A stretch of DNA of 47,709 nucleotides from Bryobacteraceae bacterium (GCA_030041035.1 JASHOO010000026.1:1-47709), one strand, 5' to 3'; positions 29,179 to 47,709 are shown, counted from the stretch's first letter. The notes: a model not told the origin generated them from the letters alone. A program made the numbers and translations.

Positions 29179-29180
29179 AA

Positions 29181-30059
29181 CTAATCCATCCACCTGTGGA
29201 GCAACTTGGCGAGCAAGACTACGATACCGAATCCAGCCAGAAAAACCAGCCAGCCGGAGAACGAATGATAGTAACCGAGAGCGTAATGCTGGTTGTACTC
29301 CGCGATGAGCGCGGTTCCGGTGACGCGCAGCACGTTCATGCCGATGGCCACCGGGACCGACAACAACACCAGCAGCACGCGGGTCCGTACGCGCTTGTCT
29401 ATCAGGAACCCGACCAGCAGTGCCGCGGTCACAAGAGAAGTCAGCGAGCGCAAACCGCTGCATGCTTCTGCCACGCCGAGCGAGATGCCCGCGAGATGGA
29501 TCACATTGCCATCCTGATAAACAGCTATACCCAGCGCCTGCACCAGGCTGCCGGATACCGAGGAAGCCAGCAGTTGCAGGGGGGCGGCGAGCGCGTTATA
29601 CACCAACTGGGGCAGCGGAACCATGGTCAGCAGCAGCACCAGCGGGAACAGCAGCGTGCGAAACCGACGGGAACCCCAAAAGGTCCAGATCAAGCCGGCC
29701 ACCAGCAGCACGAATGAAGCGCGCGACAGGAAGAACTCGGCGCCCAGGGTGCCCACCAACAACATCACACAGGCAGAGAAGATAAGCCAAAGGCCGCGAA
29801 AGTCTGGAAATGCAGGCTGGGCGAGTGTCAAATCACGTTGCAGCCAGGCAATATACAAAGCGACCGGAGGAATGAGCATGCCGTACGAGAAGGCCGGATC
29901 GTCCCACCAGTCCTTAGCCATCTCGGGCAGGACACGGAAATACATCAAAACCATCAGCCCGGCGACCAGTACGGCGCTGATCCAAAACCACCGGCTGCCC
30001 CCTGACGGCGGCGCGAGCTGATGGTTTCCGCGGGCGTCAGCGATTATTGCGGTATCCAT
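29181..30059 (-). CDS. Exosortase (PEP-CTERM-type transpeptidase)
   Basis: A 292-residue inner-membrane protein with about eight helices. The exosortase catalytic residues are all present: Cys200 in GVAEACSGLRSL, Arg245 in VLRVTGTAL and His265 in GYYHSFSGW. Exosortases cleave proteins that carry a C-terminal PEP-CTERM-like sorting signal and probably attach them to surface material. The separate EpsI gene follows directly. A sigma54-like promoter lies ~17 nt before the predicted 5' end. No protein that ends inside this window carries a recognisable PEP-CTERM tail, so substrates are elsewhere or in the truncated left-edge gene. I do not assign an exosortase subtype. Confidence 0.94.
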   Translation of the reverse strand: MDTAIIADARGNHQLAPPSGGSRWFWISAVLVAGLMVLMYFRVLPEMAKDWWDDPAFSYGMLIPPVALYIAWLQRDLTLAQPAFPDFRGLWLIFSACVMLLVGTLGAEFFLSRASFVLLVAGLIWTFWGSRRFRTLLFPLVLLLTMVPLPQLVYNALAAPLQLLASSVSGSLVQALGIAVYQDGNVIHLAGISLGVAEACSGLRSLTSLVTAALLVGFLIDKRVRTRVLLVLLSVPVAIGMNVLRVTGTALIAEYNQHYALGYYHSFSGWLVFLAGFGIVVLLAKLLHRWMD

Positions 30060-32246: not shown

Positions 32247-32247
32247 C

Positions 32248-33249
32248 ATGTATCAACGTTTCTTTGGGTTGACAAAAGAACCGTTCGCGATGACGCCGGA
32301 TCCGGCGTTTTTGTTTCTGACCGGCGCCCATCGCGAGGCGCTCGCGGGTCTGTCCTACGCCATTATGGGCGGCAAGGGATTTGTAGTGCTGACCGGGGAC
32401 GCCGGAACCGGCAAGACTACGCTGCTGACCAAGATGCTGCGGTCGATTCCGCCCAGCCGGGCGAGCTTCAGCGTGGTTCTGAACCCCATGTTGAATCCCG
32501 ACGAATTCCTGGAAATGGCGCTGCTGGATTTCGGCATTCCGCATGTACCTGCCAGCAAGACGCAGCGCCTGATCCTGCTGCGGGAATTTCTGAGCGAGTC
32601 ACGCAAGCAGGGTAAGATTTCGGTGCTGATTGTAGACGAGGCGCACAAACTGGCGCCATCGGTACTCGAAGAAATCCGGCTGCTGAGCAACTTCGAGCTG
32701 GCGGACACCAAGCTGCTGCAGATCGTAATGGCAGGGCAAAACGAGCTGGCCGCCATTCTGAACCGCGAAGATCTCCGCCAGCTCAAACAACGAATTTCCG
32801 TGCGGCTGACGCTGGCGGCGTTATCGCGAACCGATGTCGAGCATTACATCCGGCACCGCTGGACAAAGGCCGGCGGCGAGACGCATCCTTTCAGCCCGGA
32901 GGCGGTGGGGCAGATCGCGCGCTGGTCAACGGGAATCCCGCGGCTGGTCAACGTGCTCTGCGATAACGCACTGGTGCTGGCTTTCGGAGAAGGAGCCGCG
33001 GTAGTGACGGCCAAGCACGTGGCCGAAGTGGCCTCCGATCTGGAACTGAGGGAGCACCACCCGGGCCCAAGAGCCGGCTCACCGGTGAACGGGGCGAAGG
33101 CGCCCAAGGGCGCAGACGGAATGGCGAACGTACACGCGGCCGTCGGGACCTTTCCCAGCATCGAGCGGCGCATGCCCGAACCAGCCGCACCTTCGCGGCT
33201 GGCACGATTAGCAACAAAACTCCGCTTAGGGGAGGCCAGGCAAAGCTGA
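32248..33249 (+). CDS. AAA secretion ATPase of exosortase/EPS loci (ExeA-like)
   Basis: A 333-residue AAA ATPase. The start MYQRFFGLTKEPFAMTPDP is a hallmark of the ExeA/PEP-CTERM-locus ATPase group. Walker A is GDAGTGKT (50-57), Walker B is LIVDEAH (~128-134), and the small AAA domain carries GIPRLVNVLCDNALVLAF. The last ~60 residues are low-complexity. In other loci this ATPase sits with the chain-length protein and kinase and is thought to help export or assembly; direct evidence is thin. One-base gaps to both neighbours show a compact operon. Confidence 0.93.
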   Translation: MYQRFFGLTKEPFAMTPDPAFLFLTGAHREALAGLSYAIMGGKGFVVLTGDAGTGKTTLLTKMLRSIPPSRASFSVVLNPMLNPDEFLEMALLDFGIPHVPASKTQRLILLREFLSESRKQGKISVLIVDEAHKLAPSVLEEIRLLSNFELADTKLLQIVMAGQNELAAILNREDLRQLKQRISVRLTLAALSRTDVEHYIRHRWTKAGGETHPFSPEAVGQIARWSTGIPRLVNVLCDNALVLAFGEGAAVVTAKHVAEVASDLELREHHPGPRAGSPVNGAKAPKGADGMANVHAAVGTFPSIERRMPEPAAPSRLARLATKLRLGEARQS

Positions 33250-33250
33250 C

Positions 33251-34180
33251 ATGAGCAAAATCTTTGAAGCTCTGCGCAAGTCGCAAGGGGAAATGGCGGA
33301 TCTGGCTCTGACGATGGTGACACCGGAAGGCGGCAGTGCCGAGCCCGCCGCTGTCGAATCGCAAGAGGAGGCCGGGACGCTAGACGAACTGGCGCTGCCG
33401 GATGACGCGACCGGCGAGGAGCCGGGAGTCAGCCAGGAGGCGCGGCAGGCAACCTTGGGCGGCCAGGCTGCGCCGGCGGGTGAATGGCGCACACTACCCG
33501 TGCGCATCCGGGCAGACGCGCCCATCCTCCCGTTCCAGGCAGGCCACTCGCGCGAGGGCGAGCAATACAGGATCGCACGCACGAAAATTATTCAACATCC
33601 GAATCAACCGCGATTAATCGTGGTGTCGAGCGCCGGGCCCGGGGACGGAAAAACCGTGAACGCGATCAACCTCGCCGGCGCATTGGCGTTGAAGAGTGAC
33701 TCGCAAGTGATGCTGGTGGAGGCGGACCTGCGGCGCCCGTGCATGGCGTCGCTATTCGGCCTGCCGGCACAACCGGGACTATCGGAATACCTGGCCGGCA
33801 AGTGCGCTTTCGACGACATGATTATCCGCGTCGAGCAGTTTCCGAATCTGTCGATCGTGCCGGCCGGCAAAGTCGGCGCCAACCCGACCGAACTTCTGGA
33901 TTCGCCGCGGTGGTCGGCAGCATGCCAGGAGTTCCGTGGGCGAAACCGGTTCGTGATTTTTGACGCCCCTCCCATTGGGGCGCTTGCCGATTACGATCTG
34001 ATCGAGGCGAATTGTGATGGTGTGGTTTTCGTGGTACGGCCCGACTGCACGAATCGCCAGGCGTGCCTGGAGAGCCTGGCGAATATTCCCAAAGACAAGT
34101 TGATCGGTGTGCTCATAAACTGCGTACAAGACTGGCTCCTGTGGAAGACCCGGGACGGCTACTACCACGCGACGAACTAG
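33251..34180 (+). CDS. BY-type tyrosine autokinase (CpsD/CapB-like)
   Basis: A 309-residue cytosolic kinase. After an N-terminal MSKIFEALRKSQ and a ~90-residue acidic linker, the P-loop domain has Walker A GPGDGKT (129-135), Walker A' LVEADLRRP (~156-164) and Walker B FVIFDAPP (~232-239). The EGEQYRIARTKI stretch before the P-loop is the interaction motif. BY kinases end in a Tyr cluster that is phosphorylated in trans; here the tail is short, with only two tyrosines (DGYYHATN). It would control the chain-length protein encoded two genes upstream, which as a separate polypeptide must supply the membrane part. Confidence 0.93.
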   Translation: MSKIFEALRKSQGEMADLALTMVTPEGGSAEPAAVESQEEAGTLDELALPDDATGEEPGVSQEARQATLGGQAAPAGEWRTLPVRIRADAPILPFQAGHSREGEQYRIARTKIIQHPNQPRLIVVSSAGPGDGKTVNAINLAGALALKSDSQVMLVEADLRRPCMASLFGLPAQPGLSEYLAGKCAFDDMIIRVEQFPNLSIVPAGKVGANPTELLDSPRWSAACQEFRGRNRFVIFDAPPIGALADYDLIEANCDGVVFVVRPDCTNRQACLESLANIPKDKLIGVLINCVQDWLLWKTRDGYYHATN

Positions 34181-34607: not shown

Positions 34608-35741
34608 TTACGCGTAGAACGACCGGATGGTCTCGGAGACGTACTCGACATCGTCGGCGGACACCTCCGGGTTGACCGGCAGCGCCAGCACCTCACTCGA
34701 CGCGCGTTCGCTTGCCGGGAAGTCTCCCGGCTGATACCCCAGAGCGGCAAAACACTTCTGCAAATGCAGCGGCAACGGGTAGTATATTTCCGTGCCGATG
34801 CCGTGCTCCCTCAGATACGCCTGTAACTTGTCGCGTTGGGGGCAGCGGATGACGAACTGGTTGTAGATATGCCGCGTCTGATAGGACGCCGCAGCCGGAG
34901 GCGTAACTGGAGTTCCGGCCGCCGATAGCAGCTTGCGGTACAAGTCCGCATTCTGCTGGCGGCGGGCGGTCCAGCGGTCGAGATAGCGGAATTTCACTCG
35001 CAACACGGCGGCTTGCAGAGCGTCCAGACGGGAATTGATACCGGCCCACTTGTGGATGTACTTGCCGGTTCGGCCATCGATGCGAAGCGCCTGCAACCGC
35101 TGGGCACGTTTCGGGTCACTGGTGGTGAGCATGCCGCCATCGCCATATGCGCCCAGGTTCTTGCTGGGATAAAAACTGAAGCAGCCTACGCCGGCGATGC
35201 TGCCGGCGCGACGGCGCTTGTATTCCGATCCGATGGATTGCGCCGCGTCCTCGATCACCTGAAGGCCATACCGCGCCGACAGTTCCATCAGCGGATCCAT
35301 ATCCGCACACCCTCCGAAAAGATGCACCGGAATCACGGCGCGGGCCCGGGGGTGGGACCGGAGCACGTCTTCCACCCGGTTCATGTCCATGTTGAAGGTC
35401 GCAGGCTCGATATCCACAAACACGGGTTTGGCGCCTTGCCGTGCAATAGCGCCGGCCGTCGCAAAAAAGGTGAAAGGTACCGTGATCACTTCATCTCCCG
35501 GCTGAATTTCCAGCGCCATCAGCGCTAAAGCCAGAGCGTCAGAGCCGGAAGCGCAGCCGACTGCGTATTTCGCCCCGCAGTACGGCGCCAGCTCCTCCTC
35601 GAGTTTCTGTACCTCCTCGCCCAGGATAAATTTCTGGGAATCGACCACGCGCATCATCGCGCCCACCACTTCATCACGGATTTTGGCGTGCTGCGCCCTG
35701 AGGTCGAGTAGCGGGATCTGCCGTTGGCTGATCGTGATCAT
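34608..35741 (-). CDS. DegT/DnrJ/EryC1/StrS family sugar aminotransferase
   Basis: A 377-residue PLP enzyme that would aminate a nucleotide-linked keto sugar. The PLP Lys is Lys194 in CFSFYPSKNLGAYGDGG; the Asp/His region is VIPVHLFGGCADMD and VIEDAAQSIG. The C-terminus has HIYNQFVIR and IGTEIYYPLPLHLQ, typical of the family. It most likely supplies an amino sugar for the surface polysaccharide. It is alone on the minus strand between two plus-strand groups and diverges from the deacetylase gene by 176 bp, a gap with no clear motif. The product (for example 3- or 4-amino sugar) cannot be decided. Confidence 0.93.
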   Translation of the reverse strand: MITISQRQIPLLDLRAQHAKIRDEVVGAMMRVVDSQKFILGEEVQKLEEELAPYCGAKYAVGCASGSDALALALMALEIQPGDEVITVPFTFFATAGAIARQGAKPVFVDIEPATFNMDMNRVEDVLRSHPRARAVIPVHLFGGCADMDPLMELSARYGLQVIEDAAQSIGSEYKRRRAGSIAGVGCFSFYPSKNLGAYGDGGMLTTSDPKRAQRLQALRIDGRTGKYIHKWAGINSRLDALQAAVLRVKFRYLDRWTARRQQNADLYRKLLSAAGTPVTPPAAASYQTRHIYNQFVIRCPQRDKLQAYLREHGIGTEIYYPLPLHLQKCFAALGYQPGDFPASERASSEVLALPVNPEVSADDVEYVSETIRSFYA

Positions 35742-35917: not shown

Positions 35918-36688
35918 ATGTTGATGCTTAGTTATCACGAGATCACGGCAACCCAAACCCCGTATCGTTATAGTGTTAGCGAGGATCGCTTTGCCGGCCA
36001 GGTTCGTCTCGCGGCACAGCACGGAGGCGTACGCTTCACCTTCGATGACGGCCATATTTCTCAGTTCCAGTATGGCCTGCCGGCACTCGAAGCATACGGC
36101 GCCAAGGGTACGTTTTTCGTCACCGCTGGTTGGACGGGAACGCCGCGCATGATGGATTGGCCGGAATTGCGGGAATTGACCAAGCTAGGCCACGAGGTCC
36201 AGGCGCACGGATGGCAGCACAGGTTCATGACGGAGTGCTCTCCAGCCGAACTCGACCAGGAGCTGCGACAACCCCGCGAGACGCTCGAGGACCGGCTGGG
36301 AGTTCCGGTTGACGCCCTTTCCCTGCCCCATGGCCGCTGGAATCCTCGCGTGTTAAGTCGTTGTCAGGAATTGGGTTACAAGCGGGTCTTCGGGTCCTAT
36401 CCATGGTTTGGGAGACGGGAACGGTCACGCTACCCCGGCCTGGAGCTGATCGGCCGGTGCAACATTGTACGCGATACCAGCGACGAGGCCTTCGCCCGCA
36501 TGCTCCAGCAGGGTATAGACCGCCAGTGGCTCCCGCGCATACGGGGCACCATCTCCGCCGCATTGCGCAACAGCTTGGGTGACCGCACGTACCACCGGCT
36601 TTGGTGCCTGTTTGCCCGGCGGGATGCGGCCGATCTGCCGCGTGAGTATGAAACGGCTACGGAACCGAAAGGCGGCACGCGGCTGTGA
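35918..36688 (+). CDS. Polysaccharide deacetylase (CE4/NodB type)
   Basis: A 256-residue CE4 enzyme that removes N- or O-acetyl groups from a sugar chain. Catalytic motifs are TFDDG (41-45), the zinc His pair in HEVQAHGWQHRFM (~97 and 101) and the LPHGRWNP stretch. The N-terminus is short and without signal peptide, so it may act in the cytosol, on a lipid-linked precursor, or lack a full export signal. A start two codons downstream (MLSYHEI) is equally likely. Its TGA overlaps the GTG of the next gene (GTGA), so it is coupled to a glycosyltransferase. Confidence 0.9.
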   Translation: MLMLSYHEITATQTPYRYSVSEDRFAGQVRLAAQHGGVRFTFDDGHISQFQYGLPALEAYGAKGTFFVTAGWTGTPRMMDWPELRELTKLGHEVQAHGWQHRFMTECSPAELDQELRQPRETLEDRLGVPVDALSLPHGRWNPRVLSRCQELGYKRVFGSYPWFGRRERSRYPGLELIGRCNIVRDTSDEAFARMLQQGIDRQWLPRIRGTISAALRNSLGDRTYHRLWCLFARRDAADLPREYETATEPKGGTRL

Positions 36689-37848
36689 TCCCGATCCTAC
36701 TGGCCTTCGTGTTCTGGTTCTCGATCGCGCTAATCCTTTACACCTATGTGGGGTATCCACTCATCATAGGATTGATTTCCCGATTTTTCCCCATACCAAA
36801 GCGGGACTTATTCTACGAGCCGACAGTCTCGATGCTGATCGCCGCATACAACGAAGAACAGGAGATTGAGCGCAAGATTCGCGACACTTTGGCTCTGGAC
36901 TACCCGCCCGATAAGTTGGAGATCGTGATCGTCTCCGACGGCTCGACGGATCGCACCGATGAGATCGTTCAATCGCTGGCCCCGATTGCGGGACCGCGGC
37001 TCCAGTTTTACAGGAAGCCGCGGGGCGGCAAGACGGCGGCGCTCAATTTGGGAATCCCCAAGTGTAAGGGCGAGATCATCGTCTTCTCCGACGTGACCTC
37101 GCACTATGAAGCTGGGGCCATCCGCGAATTGGTTTCGTACCACATCACACCGGGCGTTGCCGGAGTCACGGGGATTTGCCGATTTCACGATGCGAGCAAA
37201 GAACCGGTCGGCCCCGGCCTAGGGCAAAGAATGTACGGCGGATATGAGCAGTCGATCCGGGTGTTCCAAAGCCGTATCCGGACAACCACGGCTTCTGCCG
37301 GACCGATTCATTCGGTTCGGCGCAGCCTGTACGCTCCACTTCCGGACGATGCCTGTATGGACATGATGCTGCCCATCGCGTTGGTTCGACGAGGATACCG
37401 TGTGCTCTGTGCGCCCGGGGCAAACGCGCACGAGTATGCCACCAGATCGGTCCGCCAGGAGTATCGGATGCGGGTACGGGTGGCGTCGCACGGGGTGAAA
37501 GGATTGCTGGATGCGGTGGACTTACTGGGATGCAGCCGGGGCCCCTGGATTGCGCTCCAGCTCTTCTCGCATAAGCTTTTGAGATACCTTCTTCCCTTGT
37601 TTCTGTTGGCATTGTTGGTCAGCAACGCGTGCATGATTCCATTCTTTTGGTGGGCGCGGTATGCGTTTCTGGCCCAGGCGGCATTCTATGGAACAGCCCT
37701 GATTGCGCTCTACCTGCCGGAGCATCGGGTACACAAGGTGCTGACGCTGCCTTTGTATTTCTGCATCGGCAACAGCGCTCTGCTGGTGAGTGTTCTGGAC
37801 TTTTGCCGCGGCAACAAATACGTTCTGTGGAACACGGAACGAGCCTGA
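36685..37848 (+). CDS. GT2 membrane glycosyltransferase
   Basis: A 387-residue processive-type GT2 enzyme. An N-terminal helix (~3-30) is followed by the GT-A domain: VSMLIAAYNEEQEIERKI, the UDP-sugar Asp in VIVSDGSTDRTDE, the metal-binding DxD-like VFSDVTSHY, and a catalytic acidic region PDDACMDMML. At the C-terminus there are about three helices (~295-370). These features match EPS/cellulose-synthase-like glycosyltransferases that elongate polymers at the membrane. The start is GTG 36685, overlapping the deacetylase stop. It converges with the GT4 gene of the big minus-strand operon. Confidence 0.92.
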   Translation: MIPILLAFVFWFSIALILYTYVGYPLIIGLISRFFPIPKRDLFYEPTVSMLIAAYNEEQEIERKIRDTLALDYPPDKLEIVIVSDGSTDRTDEIVQSLAPIAGPRLQFYRKPRGGKTAALNLGIPKCKGEIIVFSDVTSHYEAGAIRELVSYHITPGVAGVTGICRFHDASKEPVGPGLGQRMYGGYEQSIRVFQSRIRTTTASAGPIHSVRRSLYAPLPDDACMDMMLPIALVRRGYRVLCAPGANAHEYATRSVRQEYRMRVRVASHGVKGLLDAVDLLGCSRGPWIALQLFSHKLLRYLLPLFLLALLVSNACMIPFFWWARYAFLAQAAFYGTALIALYLPEHRVHKVLTLPLYFCIGNSALLVSVLDFCRGNKYVLWNTERA

Positions 37849-37893: not shown

Positions 37894-39015
37894 TCAGCAG
37901 GCGCCGCATACTCCGCGAAACAGGTCCAGATATTCCCGTGTCATTCTATCCGCCGAGTACCTGGCCTTAACCAGGTCCTGCCCACTGCCGGCCAGCCGCG
38001 CGGCTCGAGCCGGATCCTGCAACAACTCGACGATGGCCTGAGCCAAGCCCTGCGGATCGGCGCTCTTGAGCAGAATGCCGGTTTCGTTATGACGGACCAC
38101 CGCAGGAACTCCTCCCACGTCGGTAGCCACCACCGGCCGCTTCATCGCCATGGCTTCGATCAGGGTCATGGGAAGTCCTTCGTTCAACGATGGCAGGACG
38201 ACCACATCGAGCGAGCGATACACTCCCGCCATGTCCGTACGGAAGCCTGGGAAACGCACGCTTTTATCGATCCCCAGCGTCCGCACGAGGTCGTCCAGTT
38301 CCCGGCGTTGCGGGCCATCGCCCACAATCACAAAGATCACGTCGGGAAGTTGGTTTAGAACTTTCTGAGCGGCGGCCAGCAACTGCTGTGGCCCCTTTTC
38401 CGGGTGCAGCCGTCCAACCATGCCGACGGTTCGGGCATTTCCTAAAGACAGGTCGCGCCGCAGCGTGGCTTCGGCGTTTTCCGGGAAATCCCCCAAATCG
38501 ATGCCGTTCAGAATGACCGAGACCTTCCGTTGCGGAACGCCGGCCTGTGCGAGGAAGGCTCTGATGGGATCCGATACCGCCACCACGCGGTCGAAGGTTC
38601 GCAAAACCTGGTAATCGAGCTTGTCGTAGAGCTTCAGGGTCCATTCCTGGTTGGGCTCGGCGGTGCCGTGGTGATAGGTGGCGACGAGCGGGATGCCCAA
38701 ACCCCAACAGGCCAAACGAGCGTAAAGGTCGGTTTTGTAGCCGTGGGTGTGGACCACGCTCGCTCGCATCTCCCGGATGCGTCTCCGGAGAGTGCGCACG
38801 GCGCCCAGGTCCACTCTGCCCGCGCACGGCACCTCGAATACGGCTACGCCAGCCTCGCCGGCCCTTTCGGCCACCTCGTGGGCCGCGCCGTGCGTTGCGG
38901 AAAAGATTCCGGTCGATACGTCGACCCCGGCCTTTTGCAGGTATTTGGCCAGCGTCACCAGAACGCGCTCCGCCCCGTAGTAACCGGTGGGGCTGATCAG
39001 TTCGAGGACTCTCAT
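37894..39015 (-). CDS. GT4 family glycosyltransferase
   Basis: A 373-residue GT-B enzyme. The N-lobe starts MRVLELISPTGYYGAERVL with the donor-lobe motifs GMVGRLHPEKGPQ, FVIVGDGPQR and the EX7E signature in LPSLNEGLPMTLIEAMAMKRPVVATDVGG. It would add a sugar from a nucleotide donor to a growing lipid-linked or polymer chain. It is the last gene of the nine-gene minus-strand operon, 52 bp after the PIG-L gene. The length and start fit the family. The sugar cannot be predicted. Confidence 0.94.
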   Translation of the reverse strand: MRVLELISPTGYYGAERVLVTLAKYLQKAGVDVSTGIFSATHGAAHEVAERAGEAGVAVFEVPCAGRVDLGAVRTLRRRIREMRASVVHTHGYKTDLYARLACWGLGIPLVATYHHGTAEPNQEWTLKLYDKLDYQVLRTFDRVVAVSDPIRAFLAQAGVPQRKVSVILNGIDLGDFPENAEATLRRDLSLGNARTVGMVGRLHPEKGPQQLLAAAQKVLNQLPDVIFVIVGDGPQRRELDDLVRTLGIDKSVRFPGFRTDMAGVYRSLDVVVLPSLNEGLPMTLIEAMAMKRPVVATDVGGVPAVVRHNETGILLKSADPQGLAQAIVELLQDPARAARLAGSGQDLVKARYSADRMTREYLDLFRGVCGAC

Positions 39016-39067
39016 GGGCGCAGGTTTGAGGGCAAGCCCGCCGGCGGCACATGGATGAATTGTCGGG

Positions 39068-40612
39068 TCAGGAAAACCGTTCCTTGGCAGCGCATTGCAG
39101 GGCCAGAATGAAATCGTTCATGGTGGGCGCGACCACCGGGTCCGAGAGCAGGCCTAAGCGGGCCAACCACCGGCCATGCTTCTCCTTCTTTCGTCCGGGA
39201 ATGATCACCAGCGGCAGCCGCCGCGCGAGGATTGCCGTGAGCGCGCCGCCAACCCAACGCCAGCGACTTTCCGCCACCCGGACCGAGACCCGGGGCGAGA
39301 TGAGGGTCTCGGCTTGCCCTGCAAATGGGGCCCGCATGTGCACCTCGAACTGCGCACCGGGGAAGAAGTCGAGCAGGAACTGCATGTCCTGGGCCCAGTG
39401 GCCCATGGGCACCGCCAGCAGAATACCGATAGCCGGGGCGGACCGGTTGCGCCGCAACCAGGGTGCGACGTCTCGCGCGACGCGGTAAACGGACTCTTTC
39501 ACCGCGGAGGTGGCGAGCATGTCGATGCTTTCTGTGGGGGCGGCCGCCAGTCGATACCATAACTCGCTATAACTCTCGGGCGGCCCGCCCAGGGCCTTCG
39601 CACAGGCCTCTACTCTCCGCTGAATAATCTCTGTCTTCCACTGGGATGCATAGATGGAAAGCAGGTGCCGTTTCTCCGGCATGACGGCCGTGATGTCCAT
39701 GCGTTCCTCCTCCAGCGTGGCCCCAATGCCCCGGAGCGCTTGCACCAAAGCGGGTGTGTGCGCCCGATGGTCTCCCGCGTAGGGCACGTCCTGAAAGAAC
39801 CGGCAGACGCATTGCTCGACAATCTTGGGATTGGCCCGCAGAACGTTGAGGCAGGCATGGCGGGTCAACTGATGGTCGACGTGCATGCCGACGCCCAAGG
39901 GCATCCAGATCTCCTGCGGCTCGAAATCGGCGATTGCCTTGGCTAAGGTAGAGGTCCACCGCTCCAACTCGTCGCGCCCGGCAGAATGTTCCAAGTACAT
40001 GTAGATGGCATCCTTGTGCCGCCGGAACCAGTCGAGGGTCCAATTCTGAGGGTGGTAACGCAAAGAGGCCTCGGTTAGCCCGAGGGGAATGTGGCGTCCC
40101 CACAGCAACCGCGCTACGAGCTGGGACTCGGCCTTGCGAAGATCCGAGACGGTTTGGATATCGAAGAAGTCACGGTCGATTCCCCGATAGGAAGTGGCGA
40201 TGCTCCGGGTGGCGATCGTGACGATGAGGAATTCGCATTCGGCCCGCCGCTGCAACATCACACCGCCAACGCTCAAGGCAGCGTCGTCCATATGCGGTTC
40301 GATAACCATGACGCGCCGCCGTTTCCCAGGCGGGACCGGCAGCACCATTTCGGCCACCTCAAGCGTCAGGAGGCGGCGTATGCCTTCATCCGCCGACTCT
40401 CCCAGGCGCGCCTGGAGCACCCCGACAGACTCCTCTTTCTCCAATGCGTTCCACAAGAGCTGTTCAGCCTGGCTCAAAACCGCAAAGGGCCGCTGGGAGA
40501 TCAGGAAAAACAACGCGTCTCCCCGCAACACAAAGTGGGGGCGGCGGATGACCACAGCATCGCTGGGGAGCGCAGGTGTTGCGGGTGTTGGTTTGGCGTC
40601 TGTGGTGCTCAT
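39068..40612 (-). CDS. PIG-L family deacetylase with PqqD-like N-terminal and extra C-terminal domain
   Basis: A 514-residue protein with three parts. Residues ~18-92 (RRPHFVLRGDALFFL, FAVLSQAEQLLWNALEKEESV, then helices) look like a PqqD-like/winged-helix peptide-binding domain; this part is inference. Residues ~99-330 are a PIG-L (GlcNAc-PI de-N-acetylase) domain with the metal motif EPHMDD (His107, Asp110) and HVDH (244-247). Residues ~400-514 are a separate domain that may be GT-B- or SAM-like (GILLAVPMGHWAQDMQFLLDFFPGAQFE), not identified. It would remove an acetyl group from a GlcNAc-like sugar. ATG 40612 is chosen; the longer frame upstream runs into the deacetylase gene. It lies 49 bp after that gene. 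Confidence 0.85.
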   Translation of the reverse strand: MSTTDAKPTPATPALPSDAVVIRRPHFVLRGDALFFLISQRPFAVLSQAEQLLWNALEKEESVGVLQARLGESADEGIRRLLTLEVAEMVLPVPPGKRRRVMVIEPHMDDAALSVGGVMLQRRAECEFLIVTIATRSIATSYRGIDRDFFDIQTVSDLRKAESQLVARLLWGRHIPLGLTEASLRYHPQNWTLDWFRRHKDAIYMYLEHSAGRDELERWTSTLAKAIADFEPQEIWMPLGVGMHVDHQLTRHACLNVLRANPKIVEQCVCRFFQDVPYAGDHRAHTPALVQALRGIGATLEEERMDITAVMPEKRHLLSIYASQWKTEIIQRRVEACAKALGGPPESYSELWYRLAAAPTESIDMLATSAVKESVYRVARDVAPWLRRNRSAPAIGILLAVPMGHWAQDMQFLLDFFPGAQFEVHMRAPFAGQAETLISPRVSVRVAESRWRWVGGALTAILARRLPLVIIPGRKKEKHGRWLARLGLLSDPVVAPTMNDFILALQCAAKERFS

Positions 40613-40661
40613 CGTCTTCTCGCGCAGTTTGCGGTTCCAGTATGCATCTGGTTGCCCGGTT

Positions 40662-41603
40662 TTAGCCGCCTGGACGCTGCATGCGCCAAGCCAGGTCGCG
40701 CAAGCTGGCACCATCAGCGGGAATCCTCGGCAGCTCGAAAAGTGCAGGCGCATCCGGCACCCAACCCACGCGCGTTGTGACGGCCGACGCGAAATGCTTT
40801 CCCACGCAGTCACGGACGTCGACACTATAGGCGCCATCCGGGTAACAAAAATGCTTCACAGGACGGCCCAGTTCGCGTTCCAACCAGGTACGACAGCCGC
40901 CGACTTCATTCTCCAGAACTTCGGCGGGGAGCCCGGTCAGAATCTCATGGTTGGTCGAGTGAGCGCCAACGGCGATGAGCCGGGGATCGAGAGACTTAAG
41001 CTCTTCCCAACTCATGACGTCGTACTTCAGTTGATCCACCGCAGTGGGCTGAAAGGCGGGTGTCAGATCCCGGATGCGCTGAGCAGCATTGAGGCGCGCG
41101 GCGTATGGCAAATACTTGAGATGCCGGATGGTGGCTTCCACGGCGCCATCTGTTGCACCAATTTCCTCACCGAACTGATGGCGTGTTCCCTCATCGAGGA
41201 TCTTGAGGCGAGCACGGCATTCGTGATTCCAGAGCCAGCGCCCGGAATCGATCAATCCCGGGCACACAAAAAATGTAGCAGGCGCCTGAAATTCCTTTAA
41301 CAGGGGATAGGCGACGGTCAAGTTATTTCTGAGGCCGTCATCAAAGGTCAATGCAACCTTGGGCCTGCGATCGCTACGTTTCGTTTCTGCGCTCCAGATT
41401 TCCTCCAAAGGCACGATCCTGAAGTGGCGCGAAAGGAAATCTAGATTCGCCCGAAGCAGGCGAATGCCCTGTGGATCGCCGTCGACCCCATGCAGCATCA
41501 GAATTCGAGGTTGGCGGAGCACGTTGGACAACAGTTTCGTGGCGATGTTGGAACCGACCACTTGTCTGGCAAGATGCGAAAACACGAGGCGAACGGGCTT
41601 CAT
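40662..41603 (-). CDS. Polysaccharide deacetylase, second CE4 enzyme
   Basis: A 313-residue CE4 protein with TFDDG (86-90), the zinc His region GAHSTNHEIL and CYPDGAYS later on. A long N-terminal part (~1-80) contains RILMLHGVD, seen in deacetylases of exopolysaccharide loci. It is not closely related to the CE4 enzyme at 35918. It follows the VOC gene by 3 bp and precedes the PIG-L gene, giving two deacetylases of different fold in a row. Together with the GT4 enzyme they form the polymer-editing end of the operon. Confidence 0.92.
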   Translation of the reverse strand: MKPVRLVFSHLARQVVGSNIATKLLSNVLRQPRILMLHGVDGDPQGIRLLRANLDFLSRHFRIVPLEEIWSAETKRSDRRPKVALTFDDGLRNNLTVAYPLLKEFQAPATFFVCPGLIDSGRWLWNHECRARLKILDEGTRHQFGEEIGATDGAVEATIRHLKYLPYAARLNAAQRIRDLTPAFQPTAVDQLKYDVMSWEELKSLDPRLIAVGAHSTNHEILTGLPAEVLENEVGGCRTWLERELGRPVKHFCYPDGAYSVDVRDCVGKHFASAVTTRVGWVPDAPALFELPRIPADGASLRDLAWRMQRPGG

Positions 41604-41606
41604 CCG

Positions 41607-42014
41607 CTAAGTTGAGGCTTCGACGAACTCAACCAGACCCAATTCGCGAAAGTACAAGAAAGCGACACGCCGCCCCTCGAATGCGACTGCGGGTGCAACC
41701 GGGGCTGTGAGAATGGCGCCATGGTTGACGGCATCCTGAACTGCCGCGTCAATATCGTCGAGTTGGTAGCAAAGGTGATTCAGGCCTCCCCCTTTTCGGA
41801 GAGCGCCCGCGATGGGGGAATCCTCACAAGCGGCCTCGATCAATTCCAGGCGGCTACCGTGCCCGTCGCGCCAGAATTGGATACGAACTTTCTGGATGGG
41901 ATCGTAGAAAACGGGTGAATCCACGGTCAGTCCCAGATGGGTAGCGTAGGCCGCCCCGCCTGCGGCGAGGTCTTTTACCACGATGCCGACGTGGTCGAGT
42001 TTCACAGGCGGCAT
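41607..42014 (-). CDS. VOC (glyoxalase/methylmalonyl-CoA epimerase-like) protein
   Basis: A 135-residue protein with two beta-alpha-beta-beta-beta modules. Likely metal ligands are His8 (KLDHVGIVV), Glu in RLELIEA, His in LNHLCYQLDD and Glu in GLVEFVE, the positions used by methylmalonyl-CoA epimerase and glyoxalase I. It is encoded between the acyl carrier protein (8 bp upstream) and the deacetylase. This place hints at a role on a carrier-bound or CoA-bound small acid, such as epimerisation of a 2-substituted acyl group, but the family covers many reactions and this is a guess. Confidence 0.88.
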   Translation of the reverse strand: MPPVKLDHVGIVVKDLAAGGAAYATHLGLTVDSPVFYDPIQKVRIQFWRDGHGSRLELIEAACEDSPIAGALRKGGGLNHLCYQLDDIDAAVQDAVNHGAILTAPVAPAVAFEGRRVAFLYFRELGLVEFVEAST

Positions 42015-42022
42015 AGTAAGCT

Positions 42023-42280
42023 TCAGACCGTAACACCCATGGCCTGTAGCTCTTTTTGTAAATGATTGACAGACTTGAGGTTAGGAATCACCTCCGGACG
42101 GAATTGAACGCCGAATTCAACTTCCACCGCCAGCACCGCCTGCAGGTGGCCGTAAGAATCCCAGGCCTCGATGCTGCCCTGGGCAAGATCGGGCGTTACC
42201 TGTTCCAGAGGGATGTCGAAGACGTCAGCCAGCACTGAGCGCAGCCGTTCGGGGGTGGTTGGGGACTCTGGGGGGTGCAT
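42023..42280 (-). CDS. Acyl carrier protein
   Basis: An 85-residue carrier protein starting at ATG 42280; the longer frame upstream enters the FkbH gene and is not used. The phosphopantetheine site is IEAWDSYGHLQAVL with Ser42; most housekeeping ACPs have DSL, so this is a specialised type (DSYG also occurs in FkbH-linked ACPs). Helix 3 region VIPNLKSVNHLQKELQ is normal. It lies 49 bp after the FkbH-like gene and 8 bp before the VOC gene. Its likely loader is the neighbouring FkbH protein, which in other systems puts a glyceryl group from 1,3-bisphosphoglycerate on an ACP. Confidence 0.88.
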   Translation of the reverse strand: MHPPESPTTPERLRSVLADVFDIPLEQVTPDLAQGSIEAWDSYGHLQAVLAVEVEFGVQFRPEVIPNLKSVNHLQKELQAMGVTV

Positions 42281-42329
42281 GCAATCCAAACTGAATATTA
42301 TACCTTGAGTCAGCTGCCGCCCCGCTAAT

Positions 42330-44231
42330 TCACTGCCCGGAACCGGCAATGGCAATCCAATGCGGCTTCGCAGGCAGGTTCCTGGATAGATCCATGGCAA
42401 ACAGTTCGCGCGAGCCAGCATCTGGAGTTTCTACGCGTTCGAAGCCGTGTGATCGGTAGAAATTGGCGCAAGGGGCGTTTTTCGCGGTTGGAATGAACTC
42501 CCCGCGCAAAACGGGAGCGCCATGCGCTCTCGCCGCTTCCGCAACATGCCAGAGCAGAGCGGTTTCCACGCCGCGCCCGATCACGCGGCAGGACAGCACG
42601 AACGTATCGATGCGGCACTGGCCCGGTTCCATCACACCGAGCGCCACCCCGACCACGCCGCCATCTCCAAACCGGTCGCGGTATCGCAGAGCAACCGCGA
42701 TATTACCCGGCTGGCGGGCAATCCCCTCGATTTCGGCTGCCGAGTGACGTCTGGTTGTCAGGTTGAATTGATTGGTCTTCGCCAACAATTGCACGGTCCG
42801 GCTGAGCGGCGCGTCTAACGCGCTGATGGGAGTGCAATGAATCTCCAAAGAACTCAGAAACTCCTCGCGTGACCCTGCGTCGCTCTCCAACTGTGCCCGT
42901 TTTGCCTGAGCGCGATAGTCGGCAGCCCTCTCCCGATCCTCATGGGTGATCTGGAGGGCATCGAAGGCGCCGGAAGATTCCAGAGCCTCGATGGTGCGCC
43001 ACGGCTCGCCTTTGGGCGCCTCGATGACCAACACCTCCGGAAGTTGTTGCCGGACCGCAGCGCATTCCACCGGGTTGTCGTCCACGAAAACAAATGAATC
43101 CAACCCTAGCGAAAGGCGGCCGGCCAGTTCGCGGAGGGCCGTGGACTTTTCCTCCCAGCCGATCTTTACCGCGGCAAAGTCCGCCATAGAGATACCCAGA
43201 TCGGGCGCCCGTTTCTGAAAAGCCTCCTCAACGTCGGCCGGATTGTTTTTCGAGGCAATAGTCACGAGTACGCCCCGCCCGGTCATCCGCCTCAGATATT
43301 TTTGGTATTCCAGGTAGCCGTTGCCCGGGGAGGTCGCACCGGTCTGAATGCCCTCGGGTCCATCTTCGCCGAGTATGGCTCCCCACAAGGTGTCATCCAG
43401 ATCGGTGCATACGACCTTGCGGGGAGGGAAATAAAGGGCTCGAATGGCACGGACCAGTCCTCGCGTGTAGTGTTCGAAGAACTCGGGCGCGACAGCCAGC
43501 CGCGACAAATAGAACATACGCTGGTCACGCCAGCGCGATCGGCCATAGCGCGCAGCCAGGCGATCCACGTCGAAATAGACAGCGTCGCCAATCTGGCGGC
43601 AGGCTTCCCGCAGAGCCTGGTTGAGAGCCTCCACCGAGCGCGATTCCCCGCACGGCAAGTTGGCGTCGGCGATATCGCCGCCGGCCGGCGGATCGGGTAT
43701 GCACATTCCCTGCACCACAATGCGGGCCTTCGAGTTCCTTCGAAAACTCTGCAGCAGGCCGGTGGCAAAGCGGGCAGCCGTGGCACCGTCAACGGCGTCG
43801 CTGCCCGCGTTCGGTGCGGTGTTAGCCAAGTCACTCAGATCGCCGAGGAAAAGCACCAAATCCGGATTGAACCGGCACAGCGCGCCATCCGGATTGGTGA
43901 GGTCGTCAATAAAACTGCCGTAACCGCCCATTGAGACGTCCAGCCATAATCCGCCAAGGGCTGCCTGCACAACAAGATAGGGCTGGAACGTTTCAATCGT
44001 TACGGAGCGCGCTAGATAGGTCCTGAGGTGCTTCAGTCCAGCGTGTCCTGCCTTCTCCGCACTCAAACCACGCAAACGCGCTGCGGCAAAGGCATAGTCG
44101 GCCGGGCGATTGGAAATCTCCAACAGGCTCCGCAGGCAGCCAATCAACCGCAGCGCATCGCCTTGAGCGGCGCTTTCCTTCGCCACTCCCCGTAGTTGTG
44201 CGGGTTCGGCTCTTCCGGTGCTAGGTTGCAT
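42330..44231 (-). CDS. FkbH-like HAD phosphatase/acyl-transfer protein 1
   Basis: A 633-residue protein from ATG 44231 (ribosome site AAAGGGAG). N-terminal ~270 residues form the SGNH-like or regulatory part (PDLVLFLGDLSD). The HAD (IIIC) domain begins with CTDLDDTLWGAILGEDG (Asp277 region), then TIASKNNP and FVFVDDNPVEC. The last ~150 residues are GNAT-like, with KTNQFNLTTRR and FVLSCRVIGRGVE (Cys ~548). FkbH proteins take 1,3-bisphosphoglycerate, dephosphorylate it and load the glyceryl unit on ACP. The ACP two genes' worth of sequence downstream supports that role here. It overlaps the acyltransferase gene upstream by 11 bp. All motifs are intact. Confidence 0.9.
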   Translation of the reverse strand: MQPSTGRAEPAQLRGVAKESAAQGDALRLIGCLRSLLEISNRPADYAFAAARLRGLSAEKAGHAGLKHLRTYLARSVTIETFQPYLVVQAALGGLWLDVSMGGYGSFIDDLTNPDGALCRFNPDLVLFLGDLSDLANTAPNAGSDAVDGATAARFATGLLQSFRRNSKARIVVQGMCIPDPPAGGDIADANLPCGESRSVEALNQALREACRQIGDAVYFDVDRLAARYGRSRWRDQRMFYLSRLAVAPEFFEHYTRGLVRAIRALYFPPRKVVCTDLDDTLWGAILGEDGPEGIQTGATSPGNGYLEYQKYLRRMTGRGVLVTIASKNNPADVEEAFQKRAPDLGISMADFAAVKIGWEEKSTALRELAGRLSLGLDSFVFVDDNPVECAAVRQQLPEVLVIEAPKGEPWRTIEALESSGAFDALQITHEDRERAADYRAQAKRAQLESDAGSREEFLSSLEIHCTPISALDAPLSRTVQLLAKTNQFNLTTRRHSAAEIEGIARQPGNIAVALRYRDRFGDGGVVGVALGVMEPGQCRIDTFVLSCRVIGRGVETALLWHVAEAARAHGAPVLRGEFIPTAKNAPCANFYRSHGFERVETPDAGSRELFAMDLSRNLPAKPHWIAIAGSGQ

Positions 44232-44802
44232 CCGCTCCCTTTGCGGCCCCGTCAGCACCTTGCGGGGCCATGACGATGCGTCCCGGAACGCCCATCACCG
44301 TAGCGCCCGGCGGCACGGAGGTCATGACCAGGGTGTTGGCGGCGATCTTAGCTCCGTCTCCAATGGTGATTTTGCCGATCAGCGTTGCACCCGTGCCGAT
44401 GAAGACGCGGTTGCCGATCCGTGGTACCCCTTTCCTGCCGCCGGCGGAAGCTCCGATGGTCACGTGATGCGCGATATCGCACTGCTCGCCGATAACGACA
44501 TCGGGATGCAAATGAACGCCACCGCTATGACCGATGTGCAACCCCGAGCCGATGTCCGCGGAGGGATCGAGGCGCATCTGTAAGAACGCTTCGAAAAAAG
44601 TGTACACCAGCAGATAGGGCGGGCGCAAAATTACGAAAACCTTTATTTTGTTCTTCTTATAGAGCCAGTGCCCGAAGCGGTACCAGAAGATTGCCCAAAG
44701 CGGGGGCGCAAACATGAGGCGGTACCAGGGGCCCTGGTATCGTTCAAGATCGAGCCTGAACTCATGCCACATGAATCGCGTACCCGTTCGACATCCAACC
44801 AT
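44221..44802 (-). CDS. Left-handed beta-helix acyltransferase (serine O-acetyltransferase-like)
   Basis: A 193-residue hexapeptide-repeat transferase. Residues ~80-180 hold the repeats (DIGSGLHIGHSGGVHLHPDVVIGE, VTIGASAGGRKGVPRIGN, GVPGRIV), most like CysE, including the active-site-type His in GLHIGHSGG. The N-terminal ~70 residues (GPWYRLMFAPPLWAIFWYRFGHWLY) are unusually hydrophobic and may anchor it to the membrane. In sugar loci such enzymes O- or N-acylate sugars. If the FkbH/ACP pair makes a carrier-bound acid, this enzyme is the best candidate to move it to the sugar; plain acetyl-CoA use is as likely. An alternative start is ATG 44772. Confidence 0.9.
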   Translation of the reverse strand: MVGCRTGTRFMWHEFRLDLERYQGPWYRLMFAPPLWAIFWYRFGHWLYKKNKIKVFVILRPPYLLVYTFFEAFLQMRLDPSADIGSGLHIGHSGGVHLHPDVVIGEQCDIAHHVTIGASAGGRKGVPRIGNRVFIGTGATLIGKITIGDGAKIAANTLVMTSVPPGATVMGVPGRIVMAPQGADGAAKGADAT

Positions 44803-44874
44803 TTTAGATGGACCCGCGGCGCTTTTCAGGGGGCTTGCTTCAACAATCCCCAGTTCTGAGATGGGGATTCTGAC

Positions 44875-45501
44875 TCAAAGCCATCCGCGGAAGAAATAAT
44901 AGAGGATCTTGACTGTTTCGACTGACTCGTCCAGGAACACCCACCAGCGGTACGACCAGCGACTCGCGCGTTTCTCGGCATCCGGAATCGGCAAGGTCCG
45001 GACGGTTAGACCGGCACGCCGGAATGCGCGCAATGCCCGGAACATATGGTAATCACTGGTGAGCAGGATTTTGGTCCGCCGATCTTCGGCGAGAAGACGG
45101 TAAACTTCCAGGGCGTTTTCACGGGTCGTCCGGGAATGCGTCTCCAATTTCATGAGGTTTTGGGGAACGCCCTGAAACGTTAGAAAATCGGCCATGCTTT
45201 CAGAAACCCCGGCTCCACTCAGGACGATCTCGCGGATACCTCCTTCCCTATACGCTCGCAGAGCATAAACGGCCCGCCAGTAGGAATCCTCTCCAATGAT
45301 GTCTTTCTCCAACTGGGAGCCTCCCAGCACAATGAGGATCTCGCCATTTGAGTTATACTCCCGACCGGCCAGCAAGCGGCCGTACCAGGGGACCAGTGGC
45401 GTGGCGGTGACCAACAGGACCACGAGGCCGAGCGCCGAAAGCAGACGGGAGAGTGTCGTCAGCAGGAAGCGACCGAGTACCTGATTGGGCGTAGAACCCA
45501 T
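44875..45501 (-). CDS. YdcF/SanA-like membrane protein (DUF218)
   Basis: A 208-residue protein with one or two N-terminal helices (LLSALGLVVLLVTATPLVPWYGRLL) and a DUF218 domain: ILIVLGGS, REIVLSGAG, THSRTTRENALEVYRLL and ILLTSDYHMFRALRAFRRAG. The family (ElyC, SanA, YdcF) acts at the cell envelope, in some cases on undecaprenyl-carrier metabolism; its exact reaction is not established. It follows the second FkbH gene by 7 bp. A role in recycling or sensing the lipid carrier during polysaccharide export would suit the operon. Confidence 0.88.
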   Translation of the reverse strand: MGSTPNQVLGRFLLTTLSRLLSALGLVVLLVTATPLVPWYGRLLAGREYNSNGEILIVLGGSQLEKDIIGEDSYWRAVYALRAYREGGIREIVLSGAGVSESMADFLTFQGVPQNLMKLETHSRTTRENALEVYRLLAEDRRTKILLTSDYHMFRALRAFRRAGLTVRTLPIPDAEKRASRWSYRWWVFLDESVETVKILYYFFRGWL

Positions 45502-45508
45502 CTGCCGG

Positions 45509-47269
45509 TCAGGAAGTTGGTGAGGGCGGCGTCACAGTGGCTAGAGTGGAGGGTTCGGCCGGATGCAGCGCAGGTGAGTTTTTCTCGAACTCTTGGCGGG
45601 AAATCAGGCAAGGGGATTCGAGTGGACGTCCCAGAAGCGATGCCACAAATCCGGCGAACGGCGCATTCCGCGAGTTGGCTTGGAAGTTCAGCAGAACCTC
45701 CTGCACGCCACACTTGTCGAAGACTTCCTGGAGAGTGCGATGTTCAATTCGCCTGGAAAAAGCCCGGCAACTCATGACCCAAACGTCCATGCAAAACCGT
45801 GCGCCTTGCTGGCGCCCTGCCAAGGCCGCGATTTTGCCGAGTGGTCCGTATTTGTCCTGGTACTGCACCAACAAAATCCGTGTGTCGCCCTGTGCAGCGT
45901 AGGCCAGCCATTCCGCTTCTGCGAACCGCCGCCCGTTCAGGTTGAATTGATTGGTCTTGTTGATCAACTCGAGCGCTCGCGGATCCGGGGGATCCTTCTG
46001 CCAGGAAAATGTGACCCTTCCGCCGGCCCTTTCGAGAAATTCGTCCACAGGGGCGCCGGACTGGCCGCTGTCCTGCCGGATGCGCGCAGCCGCTCGCAGA
46101 CTCACGCTGCGAATGCGATCCTCTTCATTGATGGAAACCTTGCCAAAGAGATCGCGCAGGCGGCTCAAAAGACGGTAGACCTCGTCTGGATCGTTCTTGG
46201 GAAATAGAATGCATTCGATATCCGGATGTGCGAGATGCACTTCGTCCAGCTCCATAGGGCTGTCATCAATGAAGACCACACTGTCCGGTGTAACATTCCA
46301 GCTCCTGAGAACGCGGGAGACCGATGCTGACTTGGGGCCCCAGTTCACTTCAACAGGGAAAAAGTCCCCGCTCTTCGCAATAATGTCAGGCCGCTCGAAC
46401 ACCCGCTCGACGACACCCGGATCGTTCTTTGACGCGATTCCCAGCAATACGCCCGATTGACCCAAAGACCGGAGGAGTTGCTGGTACAGGCCATGAACTT
46501 GGGCGTGATGATCCAAGTCCCACGCCACGTTCTCGGCTCCCTCGTCGCCGGCAATGCCGCGCCACAGTGTGTCATCGAGATCGGTAATCAAGCCTTTCTT
46601 AGGCGTCCGCGGGACCACCAACCGGGTGAGTAGCGATGCCAGTGCGTCAGCGTGGGAAATGCGGTAGGGAAAACCCGTACTCAGTTCGCTTTTCAAATCG
46701 TGCCGCGAAGCCATGGGTGACACGCGGTCGAGCGCGCCCAGGTTGACGACGCCCACGCCTCGAGTGGCTGACAGTCCGGCGGCCAACCGCGCCAGGGTCT
46801 CGGCTATCTGAGTCTCGAAATGGCCGGCTTGCCAGGTGGGCTCGAATGATACGGGAGGAACTGGCAGGGTCGGCAGGCTGACTGCCACAGGCATGCTAGC
46901 GGTTAAGGGCTCGATGAATCGGGGCCATCGGTCCGCATTGGCCGCGACGTCGGCGAGGATCTCAGGCAGGATCTCCGGGTCCCAGCCGGCCAACCTGCGT
47001 GTTCCCAGGCGAGCGTCAAAATCCGACCACTCCAGGGCAAGAATGCAAGCGTCGAGTTCCTGCCAGGACGCCCCTCGAAGCGTGCCTTCCACATCGTCAT
47101 AGAGCCCGGTAGTGACCACCACGGTCCGGTCTGGCATTGCGGTAGCAATATGTGCCCTCAGAAAATCGGCGAGATGCAGCGGGGTAAACCCACAGCAGAG
47201 TGACACCCGAAAAGGTTTGGCCGACGAGGGAATTCGCTGGCAAATCCGCAAAGCCTCCATCAGCTTCAT
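45509..47269 (-). CDS. FkbH-like HAD phosphatase/acyl-transfer protein 2
   Basis: A 586-residue FkbH-type protein and the first gene of the nine-gene operon. The HAD domain starts LITDLDDTLWRGIAGDEG (Asp ~230), then GIASKNDP and VVFIDDSPMELDEV. The GNAT-like C-terminus has KTNQFNLNGRR and WVMSCRAFSRRIEHRTL, with the conserved SCR and the NSRNAPFAGF stretch, then a low-complexity Pro/Ser tail. It is much diverged from the copy at 42330, so the two probably load different acids or carriers. The frame stays open to 47464, but that would overlap the divergent GNAT gene; the start near ATG 47269 (or 47260) gives an FkbH-like N-terminus (FRVSLCCGFTPLHLADFL). Confidence 0.88.
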   Translation of the reverse strand: MKLMEALRICQRIPSSAKPFRVSLCCGFTPLHLADFLRAHIATAMPDRTVVVTTGLYDDVEGTLRGASWQELDACILALEWSDFDARLGTRRLAGWDPEILPEILADVAANADRWPRFIEPLTASMPVAVSLPTLPVPPVSFEPTWQAGHFETQIAETLARLAAGLSATRGVGVVNLGALDRVSPMASRHDLKSELSTGFPYRISHADALASLLTRLVVPRTPKKGLITDLDDTLWRGIAGDEGAENVAWDLDHHAQVHGLYQQLLRSLGQSGVLLGIASKNDPGVVERVFERPDIIAKSGDFFPVEVNWGPKSASVSRVLRSWNVTPDSVVFIDDSPMELDEVHLAHPDIECILFPKNDPDEVYRLLSRLRDLFGKVSINEEDRIRSVSLRAAARIRQDSGQSGAPVDEFLERAGGRVTFSWQKDPPDPRALELINKTNQFNLNGRRFAEAEWLAYAAQGDTRILLVQYQDKYGPLGKIAALAGRQQGARFCMDVWVMSCRAFSRRIEHRTLQEVFDKCGVQEVLLNFQANSRNAPFAGFVASLLGRPLESPCLISRQEFEKNSPALHPAEPSTLATVTPPSPTS

Positions 47270-47417: not shown

Positions 47418-47709
47418 ATGGTGAAACCAACGATCCGGGTTCGCCCGGTTCGCGACGATGACATCGAATTCCTCTGCCAGTTCTTGCATCAATACATGGA
47501 CCCGAGCCTCAGCGCGCAGCGGTTCCACCGGCTGTTTACCTACACTTGGATGGCCGAGAAACCGGACCGAGGCTTCGTTCTGAGCGACGGCGACCGCATC
47601 GTTGGGTTCCTCGGCACGGTATATGCCGACCGGACCGTGCAAGACCAGCCCGTACGCTTCTGCAATCTATCGAGCTGGTACGTTTTGCCGGAGTACCGAA
47701 ACCACAGCC
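47418..47709 (+). CDS. GNAT-type N-acetyltransferase (partial, C-terminus outside window)
   Basis: 97 codons from ATG 47418 to the right edge. The start MVKPTIRVRPVRDDDIEFLCQF is the usual first strand and helix of a GNAT domain; GFVLSDGDRIVGFLGTVYADR and NLSSWYVLPEYRNH (start of the acetyl-CoA-binding motif A) follow. It would transfer an acyl group to an amine. It is divergent from the FkbH operon with ~150 bp between starts, so it may belong to a neighbouring transcript of the same polysaccharide locus. No ribosome site is obvious. Confidence 0.8.
   Translation, partial: MVKPTIRVRPVRDDDIEFLCQFLHQYMDPSLSAQRFHRLFTYTWMAEKPDRGFVLSDGDRIVGFLGTVYADRTVQDQPVRFCNLSSWYVLPEYRNHS

Follow-up and report, generated by a model that had tools for sequence, protein, structure and literature searches.

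Two FkbH–acyl carrier protein–VOC sets in an exosortase-associated polysaccharide locus of a soil acidobacterium: a probable route to three-carbon acid decoration

It appears probable that a Wzx/Wzy-type, exosortase-associated polysaccharide locus in a soil member of the Acidobacteriota uses two FkbH–ACP–VOC sets to make a three-carbon 2-hydroxyacyl thioester that decorates the polymer. Kits of this type, which load a three-carbon acid on a carrier, are usually met in the assembly lines of antibiotics. Since the FkbH/ACP kits here lie in a polysaccharide locus with no assembly line, their most likely role is to attach a small hydroxy acid to the polymer. An earlier note on this DNA had proposed a carrier-based supply of a three-carbon acid without a ketosynthase, and this is still the best explanation in view of the intact motifs, the pairing with ACPs and the glycosyltransferase surroundings.

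The window (the whole stretch of DNA that was analysed, 47,709 bases) corresponds to one entire contig of an assembly that is broken into 780 contigs, and the locus is therefore truncated at position 47709. An ORF check of positions 37,894–47,269 found nine operon genes, all on the minus strand, with intergenic gaps of 3–72 bp and several overlaps (Table 1). The earlier note had described nine one-strand genes in this order and with tight spacing; the ORF positions and the Pfam and NCBIfam assignments agree with it and uphold its family names (FkbH, YdcF, beta-helix, VOC, CE4, PIG-L and GT4). Its PIG-L gene is present and intact, but the start is probably near 40612 and not at 40837. The catalytic motifs of the operon's CE4 and PIG-L enzymes are intact; as a point against the scheme proposed below, genes of both families vary as partners among related FkbH loci.

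Table 1. Features of the polysaccharide locus in the window
Feature	Position	Strand	Families, motifs and remarks
Stand-alone A-PCP-TE (NRPS-like), without condensation domain	24605–27214	-	Same strand as hydrolase, EpsI and exosortase
Exosortase and EpsI	28540–30059	-	PF09721, PF11984; TIGR02602 and TIGR02914 over cut-off
Chain-length (Wzz-like), XrtA-type AAA ATPase and tyrosine autokinase genes	30507–34180	+	Best matches TIGR03007, TIGR03015, TIGR03018, below cut-offs
DegT-type sugar aminotransferase	34608–35741	-	PF01041
Second CE4 deacetylase	35918–36688	+	PF01522
GT2 glycosyltransferase, convergent with operon	36685–37848	+	PF00535
GT4 glycosyltransferase	37897–39015	-	PF13692, PF13439; TIGR03088 is the closest NCBIfam model, under its cut-off
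PIG-L-type N-deacetylase, extra N- and C-terminal regions	39071–40612	-	PF02585; motifs PHMDD, HVDH
CE4 polysaccharide deacetylase	40665–41603	-	PF01522; motifs TFDDG, HSTNH
VOC-1, methylmalonyl-CoA-epimerase/glyoxalase-like	41610–42014	-	PF13669; TIGR03081 below cut-off
ACP-1, acyl carrier protein, FkbH-1 type	42026–42280	-	W-D-S site; ACP profiles
FkbH-1, HAD-IIIC/FkbH, different clade from FkbH-2	42333–44258	-	TIGR01686, 254 bits; tree
Left-handed beta-helix (hexapeptide) acyltransferase, CysE/WcaB-like	44224–44802	-	PF00132; TIGR01172 below cut-off
YdcF/DUF218 membrane protein	44878–45501	-	PF02698
FkbH-2, HAD-IIIC/FkbH glyceryl-transferase-type	45512–47269	-	SGNH-like N-domain, HAD, GNAT-like C-domain; TIGR01686, 214 bits
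Tandem-GNAT acyltransferase, N-terminal 97 residues	47418–47709	+	Cut by contig end; remainder on C773 (L193:3-560)

Judged by gene content, the operon belongs to a larger exosortase-associated polysaccharide locus, with the Wzy and Wzx genes on a second contig, C773. The DegT aminotransferase could supply the amino group that would be acylated. An alpha/beta hydrolase gene lies to the left of the exosortase and EpsI genes, near the A-PCP-TE gene. The exosortase passes the general model TIGR02602 and reaches 184 bits with the XrtA-specific model TIGR03109, under the cut-off of 208. Elsewhere in the window, at 1927–4515 on the minus strand, a large secretin-like protein with a C-terminal cohesin-like part is encoded.

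Both FkbH proteins pass the curated TIGR01686 cut-off (146.65 bits), and all of the DLDDT, SKN, DDxPxE and SCR motifs are retained in each. The SCR cysteine is conserved in all 60 aligned FkbH sequences and the HAD residues in all or nearly all of them; the cysteine would be the carrier of the glyceryl group. FkbH-1 and FkbH-2 are 32% identical and fall into separate clades on the tree. The clade of FkbH-2 is supported and extends across Acidobacteriota, Planctomycetota, Gemmatimonadota, Myxococcota, Actinomycetota and others; orthologues are 38–50% identical, and a comparison of FkbH-2 places the genome closest to Bryobacterales and other Acidobacteriota. Its occurrence is patchy, with strong matches, as judged from bit scores, in 22 of 299 genomes of the class. 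A structure model of FkbH-2 (mean pLDDT 86.5) has the Bacteroides protein BF1531 (3slr) as its best PDB match and also resembles HAD phosphatases, SGNH enzymes and GNAT folds. The locus of Singulisphaera acidiphila DSM 18658 (L122) resembles the window in having an exosortase, a Wzc-like gene, glycosyltransferases, a beta-helix enzyme, FkbH-2, ACP, VOC, GT4, AsnB and CE4. Four additional FkbH genes of the genome studied here (L008, L009, L010 and L011) stand beside genes for a flippase, glycosyltransferases, an ABC-2 permease, CE4 or MBOAT, and the order at L010 is FkbH-ACP-MaoC-SDR-MBOAT.

The GNAT gene that is cut at position 47709 links the window to C773. A full-length relative from a related genome (L194) matches just two sites in the entire genome of the window, with complementary coverage: its residues 35–125 correspond to the window end and residues about 129–316 to the first bases of C773, in the same orientation. 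Because a single GNAT gene is split across both contig ends and these are the genome's only two pieces, we infer that C773 continues the window. The join consists of one split gene, and against it count the zero sequence overlap, about three missing residues and the lower G+C content of C773 (0.53 versus 0.60 for the window). Besides the rest of the GNAT gene, C773 carries genes for a Wzy-type polymerase, a GT2 glycosyltransferase, a Wzx-type flippase, an ACP (ACP-2), a VOC protein (VOC-2) and a secreted TIG-domain protein. The two VOC proteins are 37% identical. ACP-1 has no Pfam match; it contains the W-D-S site common to FkbH-linked ACPs and can be aligned with the ACPs encoded behind FkbH elsewhere. 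With profiles built for the two types, ACP-1 scores 78.7 bits as an FkbH-1-type ACP and 30.5 bits as an FkbH-2-type ACP, whereas ACP-2 scores 20.6 and 91.3 bits, respectively. Since each ACP scores as the type of one FkbH protein, the FkbH proteins and ACPs are of two matched types, and the gene content points to two sets: FkbH-1, ACP-1 and VOC-1 all lie in the window, and the second set combines the window's FkbH-2 with ACP-2 and VOC-2 of C773. The single-ACP anatomy of the earlier note thus gives way to two FkbH–ACP–VOC sets; sharing of one ACP by both FkbH proteins had been considered and was dropped once an ACP of FkbH-2 type turned up on C773. The same GNAT-VOC-ACP group is present in a related genome (G007), but on another contig than its FkbH-2, and in locus L104 FkbH-2, GNAT, VOC and ACP lie together in about 4 kb. 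Two similar secreted proteins, probably beta-helical, adjoin two separate FkbH contigs (L193:5702-7669 and L011:13172-14410).

Against TIGR03081 the VOC proteins score 67 (VOC-1) and 65 bits and do not reach the curated methylmalonyl-CoA epimerase cut-off of 114.95, so that any reaction assigned to them is a guess. Residues H8, Q41, E57, H80 and E129 of VOC-1 are at positions conserved among the aligned VOC proteins. Near FkbH-ACP, VOC occurs in 15 and a MaoC-SDR pair in 37 of 82 loci, and both together in none. Within the FkbH-2 clade the counts are 13 and 11 of 42, again with no locus carrying both (p = 0.008); a further 40 FkbH loci gave 2 with VOC, 26 with MaoC/SDR and 0 with both. The pooled p-value for this exclusion is 3.5e-5, with related loci counted as independent, and independent pairs on the tree were too few to decide. 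The tree requires at least six switches between VOC and MaoC-SDR, including those among the close sisters L099/L105 (VOC) and L107/L110 (MaoC-SDR). In related loci the MaoC motif SGDxNPLH and the SDR motif YxxxK are retained. MaoC could dehydrate glyceryl-ACP to an enolpyruvyl/pyruvyl form and SDR could reduce this to lactyl-ACP, which is in line with FkbH loading modules listed as giving D-lactyl-ACP (PMC7901079). Those modules resemble the FkbH-ACP-MaoC-SDR order of the related loci in combining FkbH and ACP with a dehydratase and a ketoreductase, but the related loci encode discrete proteins without a polyketide synthase, and the window has VOC and not MaoC-SDR. VOC, being related to methylmalonyl-CoA epimerase and glyoxalase, would act at C2 instead. 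Separate genes for FkbH, ACP, MaoC and SDR were also seen in gut Firmicutes (Gemmiger, Fournierella, Pygmaiobacter and related Clostridia; L135, L141, L143, L145-L148, L151, L152, L157-L159, L162 and L165), with the Pfam check of SDR covering L165 and a large GNAT-like gene next in all but L159.

For transfer of the acid to the sugar, the earlier note had named the beta-helix enzyme. This protein is still a candidate, and 13 of 42 loci have such an enzyme no more than 4 kb from FkbH, but it is nearest to serine and sugar acetyltransferases, with serine acetyltransferases as its closest PDB matches, while a GNAT recurs beside FkbH and stands at the window edge. Of the loci searched, 32 have a large GNAT gene no more than 5 kb from FkbH; in L081 it stands directly behind the ACP. 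The window GNAT and the GNATs beside other FkbH-2 genes were linked by an iterated profile search; BLAST gave no link and direct profile comparison a weak one. The full-length L194 protein, in a model of moderate confidence (mean pLDDT 70), has a fold like that of tandem-GNAT acyltransferases such as Eis and N-myristoyltransferase. As a candidate transferase, the large GNAT is no weaker than the beta-helix enzyme. Two further FkbH-ACP loci of this genome carry MBOAT and SGNH-like genes, and a locus of the marine cyanobacterium Prochlorococcus (L136:6382-13732) has PIG-L, GNAT-like, ACP, MaoC-SDR, FkbH, DltD-like and MBOAT genes in a row. Given the varied GNAT, beta-helix and MBOAT neighbours, the transferase may differ between loci.

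A PF00109 search found no ketosynthase on the window contig, and a Pfam scan of C773 genes gave no ketosynthase family. When four ketosynthases of the same genome served as tblastn queries, none was detected in the window, L008-L011 and L072-L125 (59 loci) or in L126-L165 (40 loci); the 99 loci include a few duplicates of one place, and highly divergent or distant FabH-type ketosynthases may escape these searches. The genome does have ketosynthases on other contigs, among them C650, where the open frame spans 946 aa. Of the 42 FkbH-2-clade loci, 38 have an ACP within 4 kb, and 36 of the 40 further loci have one within 4.5 kb. Among 103 neighbouring proteins from 12 sampled loci, glycosyltransferases were commonest, followed by SDR/MaoC, hexapeptide proteins, Asn synthase, Wzy and deacetylase. 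FkbH-ACP recurs in other genomes without a detected ketosynthase and with polysaccharide genes around the loci examined. The earlier note's statement that a ketosynthase is absent holds for the contig, although the NRPS-like A-PCP-TE gene (24605–27214) is present there.

That gene is one reason to ask whether the FkbH/ACP sets feed a small-molecule line, either the A-PCP-TE protein itself or a polyketide synthase encoded on another contig, where ketosynthases do occur; moreover, the characterised FkbH systems that we found in the literature all belong to polyketide or peptide pathways. The A-PCP-TE protein, however, has its own carrier domain and lacks a condensation domain, and its gene is oriented with those of the exosortase group; ketosynthases were not found on the contig, among the scanned C773 genes or in the related FkbH loci checked, so that we consider this explanation improbable. 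It is also unlikely, if slightly less so, that FkbH and ACP act on the polymer but that an MBOAT/SGNH pair moves the acid across the membrane, in place of a cytoplasmic transfer. Such an arrangement would be Dlt-like: in Dlt D-alanylation an adenylating ligase loads a carrier protein and export proceeds through an MBOAT protein. The locus proposed here would share with Dlt a carrier protein delivering a small acid for a polymer of the cell surface, and would differ from it in ligase loading and in the MBOAT, which the window locus does not show. The MBOAT genes at the two other FkbH-ACP loci of this genome and the DltD-like and MBOAT genes at the Prochlorococcus locus speak for this variant; no MBOAT was found among the window-locus or C773 genes examined, and the GNAT and beta-helix enzymes are soluble types.

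Least probable of the three, in our estimate, is that the FkbH proteins are phosphatases of sugar synthesis and that the ACPs serve another acyl group, such as a fatty acid. The HAD domain does resemble simple phosphatases, and N-acyl amino acid synthases that use acyl-ACP have been reported beside exosortase systems (Craig et al. 2011, as cited in PMC7293339). Against this, all 60 sequences retain the C-terminal domain of FkbH with its SCR cysteine, each of the two FkbH clades has an ACP class of its own, and VOC or MaoC-SDR recurs beside FkbH/ACP.

We therefore favor decoration of the polymer with an FkbH-derived acid. Each FkbH protein, from its family and intact motifs, would take 1,3-bisphosphoglycerate, remove the phosphates and form glyceryl-S-ACP on its own ACP. 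VOC would then alter glyceryl-ACP, most simply by acting as an epimerase on the carbon beside the thioester; in related loci, MaoC-SDR in the place of VOC could give pyruvyl- and then lactyl-ACP. The tandem GNAT beside FkbH-2, the beta-helix enzyme, or both may put the acid on a sugar amino or hydroxyl group, the acceptor amine being provided by DegT or exposed by PIG-L/CE4, and Wzx, Wzy and the chain-length system would export and polymerise the product.

Individual parts of this scheme have precedents. Formation of glyceryl-ACP by FkbH and a stand-alone ACP is established for polyketides, and the tetromadurin cluster has two FkbH/ACP pairs (PMC7489565). The polyketide sets for glycerate utilisation (tetronates) and methoxymalonyl-ACP (FK520) are similar to those described here in having FkbH with a stand-alone ACP, even as two pairs per cluster, but they need a FabH-like ketosynthase, or two dehydrogenases and a methyltransferase, plus a polyketide synthase, none of which is among the genes examined here. 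Specifically, the dehydrogenases and O-methyltransferase of the methoxymalonyl-ACP (fkbG-K) type are absent from the nine genes and the scanned C773 genes, and the FabH-like ketosynthase of the tetronate glycerate-utilisation operon was not found on the contig or among the scanned C773 genes, although a distant FabH-type could escape. In Flavobacterium psychrophilum, acylation of the O-polysaccharide by wfpC-G involves a dedicated ACP, and an acyltransferase has been proposed for the amino sugar (PMC6519341). The dedicated ACP within a polysaccharide locus has its counterpart here in ACP-1 in the window and ACP-2 on C773; there, the acid is proposed to come from ketosynthases (PMC6519341), whereas here FkbH would be the source and no ketosynthase was found. 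Exosortase XrtA/PEP-CTERM loci (PMC1569441) likewise have exosortase, EpsI, chain-length, ATPase, kinase, deacetylase and glycosyltransferase genes, but XrtA-specific models stay below cut-off here, and FkbH-ACP-VOC was not found in the described system. The literature searched, with subscription papers outside its scope, gave no described FkbH glycan system. The Vibrio cholerae O1 tetronate was also considered, and coverage of it with an ACP was not found in the same literature. ACP-based polysaccharide acylation (PMC6519341) and FkbH-ACP loading for polyketides (PMC7489565) are known; a description of their combination, with exchangeable tailoring parts, was not found in the literature searched.

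More tentatively, FkbH-ACP sets without a ketosynthase, with an exchangeable VOC or MaoC-SDR part and a GNAT, MBOAT or beta-helix transferase, may represent a widespread, unnamed system of many phyla that modifies surface glycans with glyceryl, lactyl or similar acids, the choice of acid depending on the tailoring part. If so, an enzyme family known as a supplier of polyketide synthases would be widely employed in building surface sugars, and FkbH alone would not reliably mark an antibiotic cluster. In that case, one could predict from the gene beside FkbH-ACP which small acid the glycan carries, and cultured relatives exist in Singulisphaera acidiphila, Gemmiger and Magnetospirillum.
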